Assembly: GCA_958295935.1 (NCBI GenBank)
Contig: OY282385.1
Location: 1,054,001 to 1,118,000, forward strand
Reading direction: 5' to 3'
Source: an uncultured Dehalococcoidia bacterium
GTDB taxonomy: Bacteria; Chloroflexota; Dehalococcoidia; Lucifugimonadales; Lucifugimonadaceae
DNA: 64,000 nucleotides
Made by a program: the position numbers and the translations under genes. Positions 35,221 through 55,254 of the stretch are shown in pieces (position 1 is the first letter of the stretch; each line of letters begins with the position of its first letter). A model generated the notes under the pieces. That model did not search any database and had not been told where the DNA came from. It was given only the letters and a program-made list of their open reading frames with translations.

Positions 35221-38200
35221 ATGGCCTCAAACCCACTCCTCCAATACAAACGCGCGCTCCGGGCCAACCTGAACGCCGGACAACACACCGAGCATACCCA
35301 CAGGCCCGCGCTCAAGTCCCTCATAGAGCAGCTCGACCCCGGCCTTACGGCTACCAACGAGCCCGGTAAATCCGACTACGGCGCGCCCGACTACTCCATC
35401 GCCAGGCGAACGGCCGCTCAGAATCTGAACATCGGTTACGTCGAGGCCAAACAGCTCGGTACGCCGCTGGACCCTATACATACCGATAGCTATCGCACAA
35501 ACCCAAACACTCCCAACGGCAGACAACTGAAACGCTACCGGGAGGCCCTCCAAAACCTGCTCATAACCAACTACCTGGACTTCAAGTGGTACCGCGACGG
35601 TGAGCACAGGCTATCGGCCCGGCTCGCTGCCGTAGATCAGTCAGGCGGCCTTGCCCGCGTACAGGGAGGCGAAGCGGACGCGGCCGACCTTCTAAATGGC
35701 TTCCTCGCTCAATCCCCCATCGAAATCAGCAACCCCGAGGATCTCGCCAAACGCATGGCGCGCCTCGCCCACCTCATACGAGACATCGTCGTCAACGCAA
35801 GGCGCCGAGAATCCTCCCCACTTCTGCACGGGCTGCACAAAACCTTCCGGCAAGTCCTGATACCAAGCCTCTCAACAGAGGACTTCGCGGATATGTACGC
35901 CCAGACACTCACGTACGGACTGTTCGCAGCCCGCATCGAGCACGACCGTTCCGGAGAACCTTTCACACGTACCGCGGCAGCATTCAAAATACCGCGCACC
36001 AACCCATTCCTGCGCCGCCTCTTCAGCGCCATAGCCGGACCAGACCTTGAAGATGAGCCGTACGTGGGAATCGTCAACGACCTCGTACAAACCCTCGACC
36101 ACACAGACGTCGCCAGCGTCCTTGAGCGCTTTGGAAGAAACACGGCACAGCATGACCCCGTCGTTCACTTCTACGAAACTTTCCTCAGAGCCTACGATCC
36201 CGAAATCCGAGAACTGCGAGGGGTGTACTACACACCCGCCCCGGTCGTCTCATACGTCGTTCGATCCGTGGACCGCATACTGAAAAAACGGTTTGACCTG
36301 CCTGACGGCCTCGCAGACTCTTCGCACCTCTCCACACCGGAAGAAGCTACCCGCCAAGGGGATGCTCGCCATCGAGCTCTGATTCTCGACCCCTCATGCG
36401 GTACGGGCGCTTTCCTGTACTCCGTGATCGACCTCATCCGAGAACGTATTGCCAGAGGCAACCTCGGCCTTTGGACGGCTTACGTCAAGGAGAGACTGTT
36501 GCCCCGCCTGTTCGGCTTTGAACTACTCATGGCCCCGTACGCCGTCGCACATCTCAGACTCGCCATGCAACTCGCCGCCAGAGACAAGCCTGAAGAGAGC
36601 CGCAGCAGCCTCGCATATGACTTCGCATCGGACGACCGCTTGCAGGTCTACCTCACCAACTCCCTCGACGAGGCCCAAAAGAGGGCCGAACTGCTCATGG
36701 CATCCTTCATCGCAGATGAAGCCAATGAAGCATCCAGGATCAAGCGAGACCTGCCCGTAATGGTCGTGCTCGGAAATCCACCCTACTCAGGACACTCAGC
36801 CAACGACAGCAGAAGAAACGGCGAGCTCACCTGGATAGGAAAGCTCATCGAGGATTACAAGAGCGTAGACGGCAACCCCCTGGGAGAAAGAAATCCCAAG
36901 TGGCTACAGGACGACTACGTCAAGTTCATTCGCTTTGGACAATGGCGCATAGATGCCACAGGCGCAGGCGTGCTCGCTTTCGTCACCAACCACGGATACC
37001 TCGAAAATCCAACCTTCCGAGGCATGAGGGCCAGCCTCATGAAGTCATTTGACGAAATTTACTTGCTCGACCTCCATGGCAACGCGCGCAGGAAAGAGAC
37101 CGCCCCGGACAGCGAACCGGATCAGAACGTCTTTGACATTCAGCAGGGAGTAGCCATCGGTATATTCATCAAGCGGGCCCAACCGGAAAGCCACACCCGG
37201 GTACTACACGCAGACTTGTGGGGCAACCGCGACGCCAAGTACCAATGGCTCCATCAAAATGACGTCACCTCGACTGAATGGAAAAGATTGGAGCCTGAAA
37301 GTCCACAGTACCTCTTTTCTCACGTTTCACACGATAGACAGACCGAGTACCGGAAGGGCGTACCGGTAACAGAGATGTTCCCCATAAGCTCAGTAGGCAT
37401 TGTAACCGCACGAGACAAATTGACCATCCAATGGTCGAGAAAGGAAATGATGGACGTCGTAAGGGACTTCGCATCATTGCCGCCTGAATCCGCCAGAGAT
37501 ATCTATACCCTCGGAAAAGATGCTCAAGACTGGAAGGTTCAACTCGCGCAGGATGATCTGAACGAATCAAGCATAAGCGAAGAGCGCGTTACCCCGGTCC
37601 TCTACCGGCCATTCGACACGCGCTACACCTACTACACCGGCAGATCTCGAGGCTTCATATGCAGACCGCGCTTAAAGGTAATGCGCCACGTGATGGCAGG
37701 AGAAAATATGGCTCTTTGCATTGGCAGGGCAGGACAGGTGATTGGTTCACCAATATGGGATATACTATTTTGCACGAATAGCCTCTCCGAATTTAACCTG
37801 TTTCGGCGTGGAGGCAACAATATATTCCCCTTATACATATACCCGTCAAGGCAGGAAGTCGCTGCGGGACTCTACAGCCCACAGGACCGCCGGCCCAACC
37901 TCTCCCCAGCATTCGTCGCCCGGCTCCAAGAAGCCACAGGGCTGAAATTTATCCCTGACGAGCGGGGAGACTTACGTAGAACCATCGGCCCCAAAGACAT
38001 CTTTCACTACGTCTACGCCATCCTGCACTCCCCCACTTACCGGAGACGTTACGCCGACTTTCTGAAGAACGACTTCCCCAGAATACCCGAAACACAGGAC
38101 CGTCAGCTTTTCGCCGACCTGGCCGCGCTAGGCGAAAACCTCGTGGATACCCACCTGCTACAGGCAAGAGACGTCACCGGGAGCACGATCAACTACCCGG

Positions 38201-38544
38201 TTCCAGGTTCTAACGAGGTGGAACCGGGGCATCCGCGTTACATTCCGCCGGGACGCGCCGACCCGCCGCTCAGCAAGCCCGCGCACACAGGACGCGTCTA
38301 CCTCAACGCCGCCCACCGCCAGACAGGCAGCCCAGGCCAATACTTTGAAAACATCCCCCCGGAGGTATGGGACTTCACCATCGGAGGATACCGAGTATGC
38401 GAAAAATGGCTCAGGGACCGACGAAACCGATCCCTCGCCTACGACGAAATACAGACTTACAAGAAAATCGTCGAATCACTCGGCAGCACGATACGCCTTA
38501 TGTCGCAAATAGACGGCGTAATACAGAAATGGCCGATGACCTGA
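35221..38544 (+). CDS. Type ISP/IIG restriction-modification enzyme (nuclease, N6-adenine methylase, specificity in one chain)
   Basis: 1107 aa. N-terminal PD-(D/E)xK nuclease candidate: GAPDYSI (PD at 56-57) and YVEAKQLG (E75-A-K77). A helical coupler runs to about 320. The methylase has motif I ILDPSCGTGAFLY and motif IV VVLGNPPYSGHS. Between and after these lie FGFELLMAPYAVAHLRLAMQL and AFVTNHGYLENPTFRGMRASL, typical of type ISP and DISARM/BREX-like methylases. The C-terminal half has VTPVLYRPFDTRYTYYTG and DIFHYVYAILHSPTYRRRYADFLKNDFPRIP, the specificity part. A single protein could thus recognise, methylate and cut. It sits alone between gap and eno, with ordinary high GC up to about 37 kb and a somewhat lower GC stretch near 37.7 kb. 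No helicase motif was found. Confidence 0.9.
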   Translation: MASNPLLQYKRALRANLNAGQHTEHTHRPALKSLIEQLDPGLTATNEPGKSDYGAPDYSIARRTAAQNLNIGYVEAKQLGTPLDPIHTDSYRTNPNTPNGRQLKRYREALQNLLITNYLDFKWYRDGEHRLSARLAAVDQSGGLARVQGGEADAADLLNGFLAQSPIEISNPEDLAKRMARLAHLIRDIVVNARRRESSPLLHGLHKTFRQVLIPSLSTEDFADMYAQTLTYGLFAARIEHDRSGEPFTRTAAAFKIPRTNPFLRRLFSAIAGPDLEDEPYVGIVNDLVQTLDHTDVASVLERFGRNTAQHDPVVHFYETFLRAYDPEIRELRGVYYTPAPVVSYVVRSVDRILKKRFDLPDGLADSSHLSTPEEATRQGDARHRALILDPSCGTGAFLYSVIDLIRERIARGNLGLWTAYVKERLLPRLFGFELLMAPYAVAHLRLAMQLAARDKPEESRSSLAYDFASDDRLQVYLTNSLDEAQKRAELLMASFIADEANEASRIKRDLPVMVVLGNPPYSGHSANDSRRNGELTWIGKLIEDYKSVDGNPLGERNPKWLQDDYVKFIRFGQWRIDATGAGVLAFVTNHGYLENPTFRGMRASLMKSFDEIYLLDLHGNARRKETAPDSEPDQNVFDIQQGVAIGIFIKRAQPESHTRVLHADLWGNRDAKYQWLHQNDVTSTEWKRLEPESPQYLFSHVSHDRQTEYRKGVPVTEMFPISSVGIVTARDKLTIQWSRKEMMDVVRDFASLPPESARDIYTLGKDAQDWKVQLAQDDLNESSISEERVTPVLYRPFDTRYTYYTGRSRGFICRPRLKVMRHVMAGENMALCIGRAGQVIGSPIWDILFCTNSLSEFNLFRRGGNNIFPLYIYPSRQEVAAGLYSPQDRRPNLSPAFVARLQEATGLKFIPDERGDLRRTIGPKDIFHYVYAILHSPTYRRRYADFLKNDFPRIPETQDRQLFADLAALGENLVDTHLLQARDVTGSTINYPVPGSNEVEPGHPRYIPPGRADPPLSKPAHTGRVYLNAAHRQTGSPGQYFENIPPEVWDFTIGGYRVCEKWLRDRRNRSLAYDEIQTYKKIVESLGSTIRLMSQIDGVIQKWPMT

Positions 38545-49355: not shown

Positions 49356-49577
49356 ATGGCGCCACTGGGATTCCTTACAGGCAAAAACGTTGAAGAAGCT
49401 GTACAGGAATTTAGTGAAACTTTCACTGAAGTGGTAGTCGGCCTACATGAAGACGTAGAAACTCTTAAGACGGATGTATCTAAACTTGAGAAGAAACCAG
49501 CAACTTCATGTCTGCTCTTACTCACGTCAATAGCGGCGCTAATAATGTCCATAATTGCGTTGGTGATAGTGTTATGA
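49356..49577 (+). CDS. Small C-terminally anchored membrane protein, coiled coil plus one helix
   Basis: 73 aa from ATG 49356, with AAGGAAG 8 nt upstream. No known family recognised. Residues 10-45 are charged and heptad-like (NVEEAVQEFSETFTEVVVGLHEDVETLKTDVSKLEKK), and residues 50-73 are one strongly hydrophobic helix (CLLLLTSIAALIMSIIALVIVL) running to the end, so the protein should sit in the membrane with its coiled coil in the cytoplasm. The stop overlaps the next ATG by 4 nt (ATGA at 49574-49577). This coupling makes it a likely partner or membrane anchor of the following protein. AT-rich compared with neighbours. Confidence 0.65.
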   Translation: MAPLGFLTGKNVEEAVQEFSETFTEVVVGLHEDVETLKTDVSKLEKKPATSCLLLLTSIAALIMSIIALVIVL

Positions 49578-51028
49578 ATCCATCCATGGCCCAACAAATC
49601 GCCCAGCGCTACCGCGAAAAGTACGGCGAGTCGTTTACCTCATCAAATAGGCTAGAAGATCTTGTCGATATTTACATATTACGGGACGAAGAACTGATAC
49701 TGGACATTTTCAATGACAGCGAGGAGGTATGGAACATTGACCTTGATGATGTCGCTACAGAGCAGAGTGTGAACCCACAAATACAAGAAGCGCTTGGAAT
49801 GATATGTTCACGCGATGAACTTGAAGAACTGCTAGATGAATTACATGATCCAAGCATATCAGATGATGATATTATCGAATTCTATAATGAGTGGCAAGAG
49901 AGATACTATGAAGTACTATATCGAGATCGTTTGAATGCCGGCGATTTTGTCCATGGGATCAAGTTAGGTAGGGAAGAGTACGCTGATCTGATTAAATCGT
50001 CCGAAGAATTTTATGATTTACAAATTGTTGATGAAGATGGTGACATAATCATGGAAACCAGCATAGATGCCGCAAATGCAATCGCCTACGCTTCGGAAAT
50101 CAAACAACAGGAAAAACAGGAAGAAAACGAGCGGTCAGTACTACAACTTGCCGCAGATAGTACAGCTATATTCGGTAGTAGCATTAACGACACAATTGAA
50201 AGACTTCGTGTAAAACAAAACCTCAGTCCACAAATAGGGGAAGCAATTACGCTTACATCCCCTAGACGTGATGCATCTGACGTCTTATCAGCTTTCCAAG
50301 AAATGTCTGGAGATAAGTCACGTGTGAGAGGATTCTTCAACAATTTGCGCGGGAAATATTTCGAAGTTCTGGTCCGCAACCGCCTGAATAATGGCGAATC
50401 TGTTGGAGGAATTCAACTAGGTGAAGGTCAGCGGGCTGTATTAGCCAACTCTCCAACCCAGGAAGGCTGGGACTTGCGGATACTAAACAGGGACGGAAAT
50501 ATCGATGAATATCTACAATTAAAAGCAACAAAATCAATCGGATATGTCAATCAAACATTAAGGGAGAGTCCCGATATCCGCATTATCGTGACCGACGAAG
50601 TAGGGGAAATTTCACAACACGAAGACGTGCTTTCCGCAGGGATTTCCAATGAAAACCTAAAGGCTGAGATAAACGACTCGATTGGAGGACTCAACGATAG
50701 CTTTCCCGAGGAAATAGCCGAGAACGTATTGCCAGGCGCAGGCCTATTTATTGTCATTGCCACTGAAGGTGGCAGCGTCCTTATGGGGAAGCAAACATTC
50801 GGAAATGCGCTCAGCAGAGCTCCGAAACGCATCGCAGGCTCAGTCGCCTATACTGCACTTGGCGCAGCGGCTATAGCAGCAGGAGCGGATCCAACCGGCA
50901 TATCCGCTCTTTTTTTCGCTGGAAGGCTGGGCTATTCCCGATTCAAGAATATGAAAAGTGCGACAGATCAAGTGAATGCCCAGACTCAGTTACTACAACG
51001 AATATCGTATCAGCGAAGTTTTTCCTGA
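49574..51028 (+). CDS. Unknown 484-aa protein with duplicated Mrr-like nuclease module and C-terminal hydrophobic region
   Basis: Start ATG 49574, overlapping the previous stop as ATGA; a longer frame exists but lies inside the preceding gene. Not matched to a named family. Residues 107-172 and 257-325 are two copies of one module: WQERYYEVLYRDRLNAGDFV with YDLQIVDEDGDI, and LRGKYFEVLVRNRLNNGESV with GWDLRILNRDGNI. The second copy continues DEYLQLKATKSIGYV, so E264, D300 and Q315-x-K317 form an E-D-QxK set like that of Mrr-type PD-(D/E)xK nucleases. The first copy has lost QxK. Residues 420-460 hold small-residue hydrophobic helices (VAYTALGAAAIAAGADP, ISALFFAGRLGY). The acidic N-terminus is helical. 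AT-rich codon use marks recent gain. It ends 38 nt from the converging cysK. Confidence 0.6.
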   Translation: MNPSMAQQIAQRYREKYGESFTSSNRLEDLVDIYILRDEELILDIFNDSEEVWNIDLDDVATEQSVNPQIQEALGMICSRDELEELLDELHDPSISDDDIIEFYNEWQERYYEVLYRDRLNAGDFVHGIKLGREEYADLIKSSEEFYDLQIVDEDGDIIMETSIDAANAIAYASEIKQQEKQEENERSVLQLAADSTAIFGSSINDTIERLRVKQNLSPQIGEAITLTSPRRDASDVLSAFQEMSGDKSRVRGFFNNLRGKYFEVLVRNRLNNGESVGGIQLGEGQRAVLANSPTQEGWDLRILNRDGNIDEYLQLKATKSIGYVNQTLRESPDIRIIVTDEVGEISQHEDVLSAGISNENLKAEINDSIGGLNDSFPEEIAENVLPGAGLFIVIATEGGSVLMGKQTFGNALSRAPKRIAGSVAYTALGAAAIAAGADPTGISALFFAGRLGYSRFKNMKSATDQVNAQTQLLQRISYQRSFS

Positions 51029-52975: not shown

Positions 52976-53277
52976 GTCGTCCTCATCGATTCCTGCCGGG
53001 ACAGGCCCGGCCCTGAGCGTCTTCCCCCTAAGTGTACCCGCCCAGCCGGTAAGTAGGCACTGTGCGGCCAAGTTAGGATCTCGATGGGATTCGTCTCTTG
53101 GCTCGAAAGAACCACTGCACGCGCCCCCGTGACGCGGGCATGAGCGCACCATCCCACAGCTCGATCAGCGCGACGTACAATATACACTCTTCGACAAATA
53201 ATCAGCCAAAGCCGGTCAGGCCTCCACCTCCTCAGGGCCGGGAGTCCACAGTTCGGCTCGAACGTACGGTCTTGGAC
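52976..53277. other. 302-nt divergent gap between moeB and the DUF262 gene
   Basis: The frame of the DUF262 gene is open upward to 53098, but conserved sequence starts at 53278. A -10-like TACAAT lies at 53176-53181 on the + strand, with no good -35. On the - strand GGTACACTTAGG is a weak -10 candidate for moeB. Nothing else recognised. Confidence 0.4.
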
Positions 53278-55254
53278 ATGGCAATGAAGATTTCCACCAT
53301 TCTTGATCACATCGACAGCGGTTCCATAGCGCTGCCCGAATTCCAGCGCGGCTACGTCTGGAATCGGAACCAAGTACGCAGCCTCCTCGCTTCGCTGTAC
53401 CGCCGCCATCCTGTGGGAGGGCTCTTGGTATGGGCAACAGAATCACAAGGGGCAAGCTATAGGGGCGAGGGAGAATTGCCGTTAGGGCAAGTTAAATTAT
53501 TGCTGGATGGCCAACAGCGTATGACATCCCTGTATGGAATCGTAAGAGGCAAACCACCAAAGTTTTTTGACGGTAACGAAAAAGCTTTCACAGACTTGTT
53601 CTTTAATTTGGAGAACGAAGAGTTTTCCTTTTATCAACCAATGAGGATGAAAAATGATCCTCTGTGGATCGACGTATCATCATTGATGATGAAAGGAAAC
53701 AACGGTCTGGGTGAATACGTCACGAGACTGTCACAAATACCTGAGCATTCGCCCAGAACTGGTGTATATGTCGGTCGCCTCTCCACGCTGTTAGGTATCA
53801 GAGAGATAGGTCTACATGTTCATGAAATCACGGGTGCTGACAAGACGATCGATGTCGTTGTCAACATCTTTAACACGGTCAACAGCGGTGGAACCAAGTT
53901 ATCCAAGGGTGATCTAGCTCTTGCCAAAATCTGCTCCAATTGGCCCGATGCCAGGGAAGCGATGAAGGTTGAGCTCATACGCTGGAAAAAGGCCGGCTAC
54001 GACTTTAATCTAGATTGGTTACTCCGTTCTGTGAATACAGTGCTAACCGGAGAAGCAAGGTTTACTTACCTGCACAATCAAGGTGCTGAAGAGATCAAAG
54101 GCAGCCTCACCCGTGCAACCAAAGCCATTGACACAATTCTCAACCACATCAGCGGTCAGCTAGGCTTAGATCATGACCGAGTGCTGTTCGGCAAATTCGC
54201 CATTCCAATTATGGCCCGATATCTTGATCAACGTAAATCGCAATTGAGTGCAAATGAAATAGATAAACTGCTCTTCTGGTACGTTCAAGCCGGTATGTGG
54301 GGCCGCTTCTCTGGCTCTACGGAAACGATGATAGACCAAGATCTAGCCGCCATTGAAGAGGTAGAGGGCGGGATAGACCGCTTGCTTGAGCAGATGCGAC
54401 TGTGGCACGGCAGCCTACAAGTCAAGCAAGAGCATTTTTATGGATGGAGCATTGGCGCAAGGTTCTATCCACTACTATACATGCTAACTCGTATGGGCGA
54501 GTCGAAAGATTGGGGATCTGGTCTACCACTCAAAGCCAGTATGCTCGGTAAAATGAACAAGCTGGAAGTCCACCATATTTTTCCTAAATCAAAACTCTAT
54601 GACTCGGGTTTCAAGCGACCACAGGTCAACGCCCTAGCCAACTTCTGCTTCCAAACCAAAAGCACAAATCTAGCAATCAGTGACAGGCTGCCGGAGGATT
54701 ATTTTCCTGAGATTGAGGCGGAGCACCCTGGGGCGCTGGCATCTCAGTGGATACCGATGGACCGGGAACTTTGGCGCGTGGACAACTACCAAGGTTTCCT
54801 TATTGCCCGGCAAAAACTGCTTGCCGAAGAAGCAAACCGTCGCCTTGAGTCATTGTTGCATGGCGACACACGCTGGTTTCCGAGTCCTTCACTCCCCAGC
54901 GTTTCGACTGCGAGTGCAGAGAAACCCGCCGTCCCCATCGGGGGCATCGCAAGCGATACGGAAGAGCAGGAACTTGAATCGCTCAACAAATGGGTCGGCG
55001 AGCAGGATCTGCCCATGGGCATCATCGCTTATGATCTCTCTGATGAAGAAACCGGCGAGCAACAGGCAGTCTTTGACTTGGCCTGGCCCGACGGGTTGCA
55101 GCCGGAGCTGAGCGAGCCTGTAGCCGTACTTCTTGATGAAGGCACCGAAGTAATCGTCTTGGCCAACGAACGCGGCTTCCGTTGCTTCACTACACCAGAA
55201 AGCTTCCAACACTACGTAGAGCGTGAACTTCTGTCACCAGTCCCGGTACAGTAA
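53278..55254 (+). CDS. DUF262 (GmrS-like) protein with HNH domain
   Basis: 658 aa from ATG 53278, where the family begins (MKISTILDHIDSGSIALPEFQRGYVWNRNQVRSLLASLYRRHPVGGLLVW); an upstream in-frame start at 53098 would add 60 poor residues. LLLDGQQRMTSLYG (DGQQR at 77-81) is the ParB-like nucleotide-binding and cleavage motif of DUF262. VVVNIFNTVNSGGTKLSKGDLALAKI is the second block. LEVHHIFPKSKLYD, with HH near residue 433, begins a DUF1524-type HNH nuclease motif. A C-terminal 90-residue part (PMGIIAYDLSDEETGEQQAVFDLAWPDGL) is extra. GmrSD-like enzymes cut modified phage DNA. GC is lower than in moeB. It diverges from moeB. Confidence 0.85.
   Translation: MAMKISTILDHIDSGSIALPEFQRGYVWNRNQVRSLLASLYRRHPVGGLLVWATESQGASYRGEGELPLGQVKLLLDGQQRMTSLYGIVRGKPPKFFDGNEKAFTDLFFNLENEEFSFYQPMRMKNDPLWIDVSSLMMKGNNGLGEYVTRLSQIPEHSPRTGVYVGRLSTLLGIREIGLHVHEITGADKTIDVVVNIFNTVNSGGTKLSKGDLALAKICSNWPDAREAMKVELIRWKKAGYDFNLDWLLRSVNTVLTGEARFTYLHNQGAEEIKGSLTRATKAIDTILNHISGQLGLDHDRVLFGKFAIPIMARYLDQRKSQLSANEIDKLLFWYVQAGMWGRFSGSTETMIDQDLAAIEEVEGGIDRLLEQMRLWHGSLQVKQEHFYGWSIGARFYPLLYMLTRMGESKDWGSGLPLKASMLGKMNKLEVHHIFPKSKLYDSGFKRPQVNALANFCFQTKSTNLAISDRLPEDYFPEIEAEHPGALASQWIPMDRELWRVDNYQGFLIARQKLLAEEANRRLESLLHGDTRWFPSPSLPSVSTASAEKPAVPIGGIASDTEEQELESLNKWVGEQDLPMGIIAYDLSDEETGEQQAVFDLAWPDGLQPELSEPVAVLLDEGTEVIVLANERGFRCFTTPESFQHYVERELLSPVPVQ

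Follow-up and report, generated by a model that had tools for sequence, protein, structure and literature searches.

A candidate defence module pairing a small coiled-coil protein with a predicted PD-(D/E)xK nuclease in Dehalococcoidia and other bacteria

Two coupled genes, here called A and B, in the genome of an uncultured Dehalococcoidia bacterium may constitute an anti-phage (or anti-foreign-DNA) defence module, in which B would be a metal-dependent PD-(D/E)xK DNA nuclease that A tethers to the inner membrane. We give this reading somewhat better than even chances. It is suggested by the conserved residues and predicted core of B, by the presence of an A-like gene directly upstream of B in every relative found, and by the location of many of these pairs within defence loci, in some cases inside BREX systems. 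The features of the locus are collected in Table 1, where positions refer to the window, that is, the whole stretch of 64,000 nucleotides that was analysed.

Table 1. Features of the A-B locus (window positions) and of the third gene found in relatives
Feature	Position	Strand	Basis or remarks
Gene A, coiled-coil protein of 73 aa with one membrane helix at its C-terminus (residues 54-72)	49356..49577	+	Family motif around EVVVGLHEDVETLKTDVSKLEKK; motif in the upstream gene of 36/36 relatives
Gene B, 484-aa predicted nuclease of PD-(D/E)xK type with a Gly/Ala-rich hydrophobic C-terminus	49574..51028	+	PADLOC match, conserved residues, AlphaFold2 models
ATGA start/stop overlap coupling A and B	49574..49577	+	Identical 4-base overlap in 20/36 relatives
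Degenerate first module copy, B residues 62-175	49757..50098	+	E and D retained, Q-x-K replaced by S-x-D; local alignment, family profile
Predicted nuclease core, B residues 206-375, with E264, D300, Q315 and K317	50189..50698	+	AlphaFold2 pLDDT 90.3, pTM 0.87; Foldseek list mostly PD-(D/E)xK folds
Two moderately hydrophobic Gly/Ala-rich helices, B residues 385-403 and 420-438	50726..50887	+	Full AlphaFold2 model, hydropathy
Gene C	Loci L026-L041 and L044, directly after B		Two zinc-ribbon-like cysteine clusters, hydrophobic N-terminus

The locus and its base composition

The coordinates, protein lengths and ATGA overlap given in the original prediction, which had been made from the sequence alone, were all exact on recheck. 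The start of gene A (49356) is preceded at about 7 nt by AAAGGAAG and agrees with the N-termini of the relatives. The GC content is 0.42 in gene A and 0.45 in gene B, while that of the 64-kb window is 0.61, and the corresponding GC3 values of the two genes are 0.38 and 0.41. The composition had been described as unlike that of all neighbours, and this holds with respect to a hydrolase gene at 46.5 kb (GC3 0.74), the adjacent glyoxalase gene (0.71) and the adjacent cysK (0.82), but not with respect to a ThiF-like gene near the pair (GC3 0.45) or to a DUF262/HNH gene that is likewise AT-rich (GC 0.51). The latter (53098-55254) encodes a GmrSD-type DUF262 protein of 718 aa with matches to GmrSD_N (3e-25) and HEC-05 (6.9e-39), and lies 2 kb from A-B, beyond cysK-thiF. 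A type IIG restriction enzyme-methyltransferase (35221-38544, 1107 aa, PADLOC E=4.2e-270) is encoded 11 kb from A-B in another lower-GC stretch.

The host genome is a single contig of 2.75 Mb. The cysK-thiF pair beside gene B is kept together in nearly all related genomes examined, and neither A-B nor the DUF262 gene was found within 1.5 kb of it in any of the others. Since A-B and the DUF262 gene flank this conserved pair here and in none of the other genomes examined, both were probably acquired. We propose no insertion mechanism, because the surroundings of A-B yielded no tRNA, no convincing terminal repeats and no terminator.

Gene B, its small partner and a third gene

Gene B had been thought to match no known family, which holds for Pfam and NCBIfam, where no match was obtained, but not for PADLOC, whose profile PDC-M72B matches residues 236-385 (E=1.4e-17; relatives down to 6.7e-21). 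Searches of the PDB sequences with phmmer and with a profile yielded no useful relative, and a match to 7ue2 (E=0.0011), limited to the N-terminal helices, looked like chance. The nuclease-like E-D-QxK set had been located at the right positions: E264, D300 and K317 are invariant across 26 divergent relatives and Q315 is conserved in at least 90%, so that the set is not a chance pattern but corresponds to the conserved residues of the family. The invariant residues also include G260, K261, Y262, F263 and W299, and L316 is conserved in at least 90%.

As Foldseek searches with the whole model were diluted by its low-confidence regions, the core was refolded alone, and AlphaFold2 predicted for it an alpha-beta-beta-beta-alpha-beta arrangement (Table 1). 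In the full model, DSSP assigned a helix (248-272), three strands (287-290, 301-304 and 310-317), a second helix (322-331) and a further strand (336-339), with E264 on the first helix, D300 just before the second strand, and Q315 and K317 on the third. The layout of this predicted core is that of PD-(D/E)xK enzymes, and the residues named beforehand fall on the expected elements. The Foldseek leaders for the core were influenza PA-N, DdmD, DrdV, YaeQ, EcoRII-C, Ecl18kI and Bax1, all of which we take to be PD-(D/E)xK proteins, and nearly all of the top matches belong to this superfamily; each match was singly below significance (best E 0.024, best Z 6.6 over 129 residues). On the strength of these models, we consider it very likely that B has the PD-(D/E)xK fold, and we infer that it is active as a nuclease. 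The hydrophobic helices that had been noted near the end of B are also found, but as two Gly/Ala-rich stretches of only moderate hydropathy (1.64 and 1.54; range 1.3-2.2), which probably form a region of contact with the membrane or with a partner.

The original prediction had passed over a tandem duplication inside gene B. The first module copy is a diverged duplicate of residues 213-327 (local alignment score 168; best of 1000 shuffles, 54), and the family profile matches residues 1-174 (E=1.1e-21) and the C-terminal part (9e-104) separately. This copy keeps the glutamate and the aspartate, but S-I-D stands in place of Q-L-K, so that the catalytic lysine is lost, and E-R-Y in place of G-K-Y; judging by these replacements, it is expected to be without activity. 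The double form is absent from all 36 relatives, which possess one domain and are of 317-350 aa, so that the size of 484 aa is so far special to the host genome.

These relatives were found with a profile built from eight of them (a genome scan with the single sequence P0002 had found none), and they lie on 36 genome contigs of Chloroflexota, Pseudomonadota, Bacillota, Bacteroidota and Nitrospirota. The named carriers within the family and order of the host are Chloroflexi, SAR202 and Dehalococcoidia MAGs. Whether homologues of B occur together with the small gene had been proposed as a check, and they do so in all 36 cases: the gene directly upstream of B carries the motif E-x-hhhG-h-(H/D)-x-x-h-x-x-L-x-x-R-h-x-x-L-E or a variant of it (h, hydrophobic). 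Where the spacing departs from the exact overlap, it is mostly within about 16 bases, and the widest gap is 38.

The description of A as a coiled coil with one C-terminal membrane helix was borne out, the helix being single and strongly hydrophobic (Kyte-Doolittle 2.89). A strong C-terminal helix is also present on A in Bacillota, Maribacter, Nitrospira and most Chloroflexota, and there is none in 18 loci of proteobacterial type and in three SAR202 loci (L055, L060 and L061). The membrane anchor on A is lineage-specific and, since it is missing from these loci, tethering through A cannot be universal. At one further locus (L056), A looks frame-shifted at the region of the membrane helix. The matches of longer A proteins to JetC, LeoC, ZorA, Shugoshin and XhlA in PADLOC and Pfam were put down to coiled-coil similarity.

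In 17 of the 18 proteobacterial-type loci, B is followed, usually with a 4-base overlap, by a third gene, C, of about 310-335 aa (the contig of the eighteenth ends too early). Its product begins with a hydrophobic or amphipathic stretch and bears two cysteine/histidine clusters (C145, C147, C171 and C184; C249, H252, C275 and C285, in the numbering of L030). It gave no significant match in Pfam or PADLOC, the Pfam zinc-ribbon matches being sub-threshold only. C was never found together with a helix-bearing A, which is most simply explained by a shift of membrane and DNA contact from one subunit to another. On two MAG contigs, labelled Anaerolineales (L026) and Saccharibacteria (L032), the nuclease and gene C are close to the versions of Zoogloeaceae and Hydrogenophaga, and these contigs probably represent binning errors or recent transfer.

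The host genome carries in addition a divergent paralogous pair (G000, about 2.735-2.737 Mb; L011, 7454-9250), composed of a 221-aa coiled-coil protein, which has a membrane helix at its C-terminus, and then a nuclease of 375 aa that has a QVKTG motif and whose C-terminus resembles a glycine zipper. A similar pair was also seen in L019.

Genomic context and alternative readings

The original prediction had proposed a survey for defence islands, and many homologues do lie in defence loci and are not confined to housekeeping operons. At five loci (L030, L031, L033, L034 and L035), A-B-C is placed inside a type I BREX system, between pglX and pglZ-brxL (matches to PglX, 3.9e-279; PglZ, 3.9e-304; BrxL, 1.6e-303). 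PsyrTA is directly upstream at four loci (L030, L032, L033 and L035), three of which are shared with BREX. At L037, a type IIG enzyme is upstream and Zorya genes are downstream (ZorA, 5e-179; ZorB, 1.5e-91); at L053 (234-7943), a type II methylase and a restriction enzyme lie within the same trp operon as A-B; and L028 and L046 are near McrB-like PDC-M26A genes. As raw counts, the defence neighbours among the 36 loci are BREX at five, PsyrTA at four, Zorya with a type IIG enzyme at one, a type II restriction-modification pair at one and McrB-like genes at two.

The five BREX loci raise the question of whether A-B is an auxiliary nuclease subunit of neighbouring defence systems, BREX and others, and not a self-standing module. 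Among the extra nucleases that BREX loci contain, PD-(D/E)xK enzymes are reported to be the commonest (PMC12839542). However, no BREX gene was found in the stretch examined at the host locus or at most of the relatives, and A-B occurs alone in trp and sarcosine-oxidase operons, so that we regard an auxiliary role as quite improbable.

The order of the genes also recalls a toxin-antitoxin or abortive-infection pair, in which A would keep B inactive until infection or the loss of A freed it to degrade host DNA or RNA and to stop the cell. Translational coupling of a small leading gene to a larger one for a nuclease is the order typical of toxin-antitoxin loci, and modules of PsyrTA type occupy the same BREX slot. 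PsyrTA resembles A-B in this slot and in being formed by two coupled genes, but PsyrT is helicase-like and PsyrA resembles ShosA (DprA-like), and A and B match neither. Moreover, unlike common toxin-antitoxin families, A-B is almost absent from 72,556 plasmids and did not turn up in 50,697 phage genomes or in the scanned viral contigs, the sole matches in all these being two distant ones on alphaproteobacterial plasmids. A bears a membrane helix in many phyla, and a Pfam scan detected no DNA-binding domain in it. Taken together, these points make a toxin-antitoxin pair unlikely.

The rarity of A-B on plasmids could be taken as a sign that the module is a barrier to plasmids or natural transformation instead of phage, and a DNA nuclease placed at the membrane would indeed act on any entering DNA. 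We believe that this is very improbable, since rarity on plasmids is to be expected of any chromosomal gene, the context is one of phage-defence loci, and the membrane nuclease SNIPE is no obstacle to plasmid transformation (PMC13190303).

Several Dehalococcoidia copies are in metabolic operons, with no defence gene seen nearby. A-B was found between trpG and trpD in three Dehalococcoidia genomes of one genus (a sister genus in which its presence is polymorphic), between trpD and trpC at L061 (4522-7730), and inside a sarcosine-oxidase-like operon (its identity being read from the sequence) in two Dehalococcoidia genomes. Such positions might point to a housekeeping function tied to these operons, but the operons differ between genomes, trpG adjoins trpD in three sister genomes of the genus with the trpG/trpD insertion, 6 of the 76 genomes of the host's family carry A-B, and the pair is AT-rich in the host and lies inside BREX elsewhere. 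A housekeeping function is for these reasons hardly credible. In its distribution, A-B behaves like an accessory defence gene of the chromosome and unlike either a housekeeping gene or a common addiction module of plasmids. As a separate observation, defence genes seem to use the trp operon of Dehalococcoidia as an insertion site, with the restriction-modification pair accompanying A-B at L053 and A-B at a different trp junction at L061.

Proposed mechanism and relation to known systems

The original suggestion that a membrane-bound nuclease with a dedicated small partner fits an immunity system is strengthened by the predicted core, the constant pairing and the defence loci, and weakened by the uneven occurrence of the helix on A, the moderate hydrophobicity of the C-terminus of B and the copies in metabolic operons of Dehalococcoidia. 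Two outcomes had been named beforehand as refuting it, a predicted structure lacking a PD-(D/E)xK core, and homologues that never accompany the small gene and are confined to housekeeping operons; neither was obtained. We retain a defence role as our inference, and A presumably contacts B and places it at the membrane. In such a module, the coiled coil of A would bind B or oligomerise, and its C-terminal helix would be inserted in the inner membrane and hold B there. The tethered nuclease would be kept off the chromosome and placed where phage DNA enters, so as to cut the incoming DNA or to be released upon infection. In Proteobacteria, where A has no anchor, gene C would probably take over both anchoring and DNA contact. 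The dead nuclease copy of the host genome may be a DNA-binding or an autoinhibitory (locking) domain, which is guesswork.

This mechanism recalls SNIPE (PD-lambda-1), a membrane-bound nuclease that cuts phage DNA at injection and whose anchor keeps the enzyme from cutting host DNA, with homologues that swap anchors or lack helices (PMC13190303). The proposed principle, a membrane-held nuclease with anchors swapped between homologues, would be the same, and members without a membrane helix occur in both. However, SNIPE unites DUF4041, a GIY-YIG nuclease and an N-terminal anchor in a single polypeptide, whereas B is predicted to be PD-(D/E)xK-like and the anchor is on a separate gene; neither DUF4041 nor GIY-YIG gave a Pfam match in A, B or their relatives. 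It is possible, though doubtful, that A-B represents a counterpart of SNIPE divided over several subunits and built on an unrelated nuclease fold, in which a PD-(D/E)xK enzyme would be tethered to the membrane by an obligate small partner, the anchor would be interchangeable (the helix of A, or a zinc-ribbon C with its amphipathic N-terminus) and the dead copy would serve as a sensor or a lock in the Chloroflexota member. It was demonstrated only recently (SNIPE, 2026) that a nuclease tethered to the membrane can cut phage DNA as it enters and, if A-B worked in this manner, the principle would have evolved a second time, independently, on the basis of a different nuclease fold and of an exchangeable anchor that has a gene to itself. 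The constant pairing of A and B makes the module easy to test in Escherichia coli or Bacillus subtilis.

No description of an A-B or A-B-C arrangement was found in the main texts of the published papers searched. That BREX loci contain extra PD-(D/E)xK nucleases is already known in general: stand-alone enzymes, fusions with HARE-HTH, ATPase or helicase domains, and Shedu are described in PMC12839542. These nucleases share with B the superfamily and the site inside BREX core loci but no description was found in the main text of that paper of the A-B-C arrangement, which accounts for a recurring insert in these loci. The CoCoNuTs, which also combine a coiled coil, a PD-(D/E)xK nuclease and a zinc ribbon, were set aside because they rest on a McrB GTPase that is not part of the A-B unit.

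The nuclease region of B is likewise already known as the computational candidate PDC-M72B. PDC-M72 (M72A and M72B) is a PADLOC candidate from the guilt-by-embedding survey of immune loci by Payne et al. 2024 (bioRxiv 10.1101/2024.01.29.577857), according to the account of it in PMC12988326; a literature search for PDC-M72 returned no paper. Both B and this candidate were found embedded in defence loci, but M72A matches ankyrin-repeat proteins whereas the partner of B is a small coiled-coil gene, and the M72B profile (193 positions) stops short of the C-terminal hydrophobic region of B. The M72A matches of the host genome are at 1.19 and 1.39 Mb, not near the A-B locus at 1.103 Mb, and, since the locus has no M72A, A-B was not accepted as a member of PDC-M72 in its defined form. 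The A-B pairing supplies a partner and a probable mechanism for what was formerly a computational candidate only. A distant B encoded on a Sulfitobacter plasmid comes after a Gly-rich hydrophobic protein and next to a HEC-05 (DUF262) gene, and on a Yoonia plasmid (L063, 4083-5612) a Gly-rich hydrophobic PDC-M09A-like domain is fused to an M72B-type nuclease in one protein.
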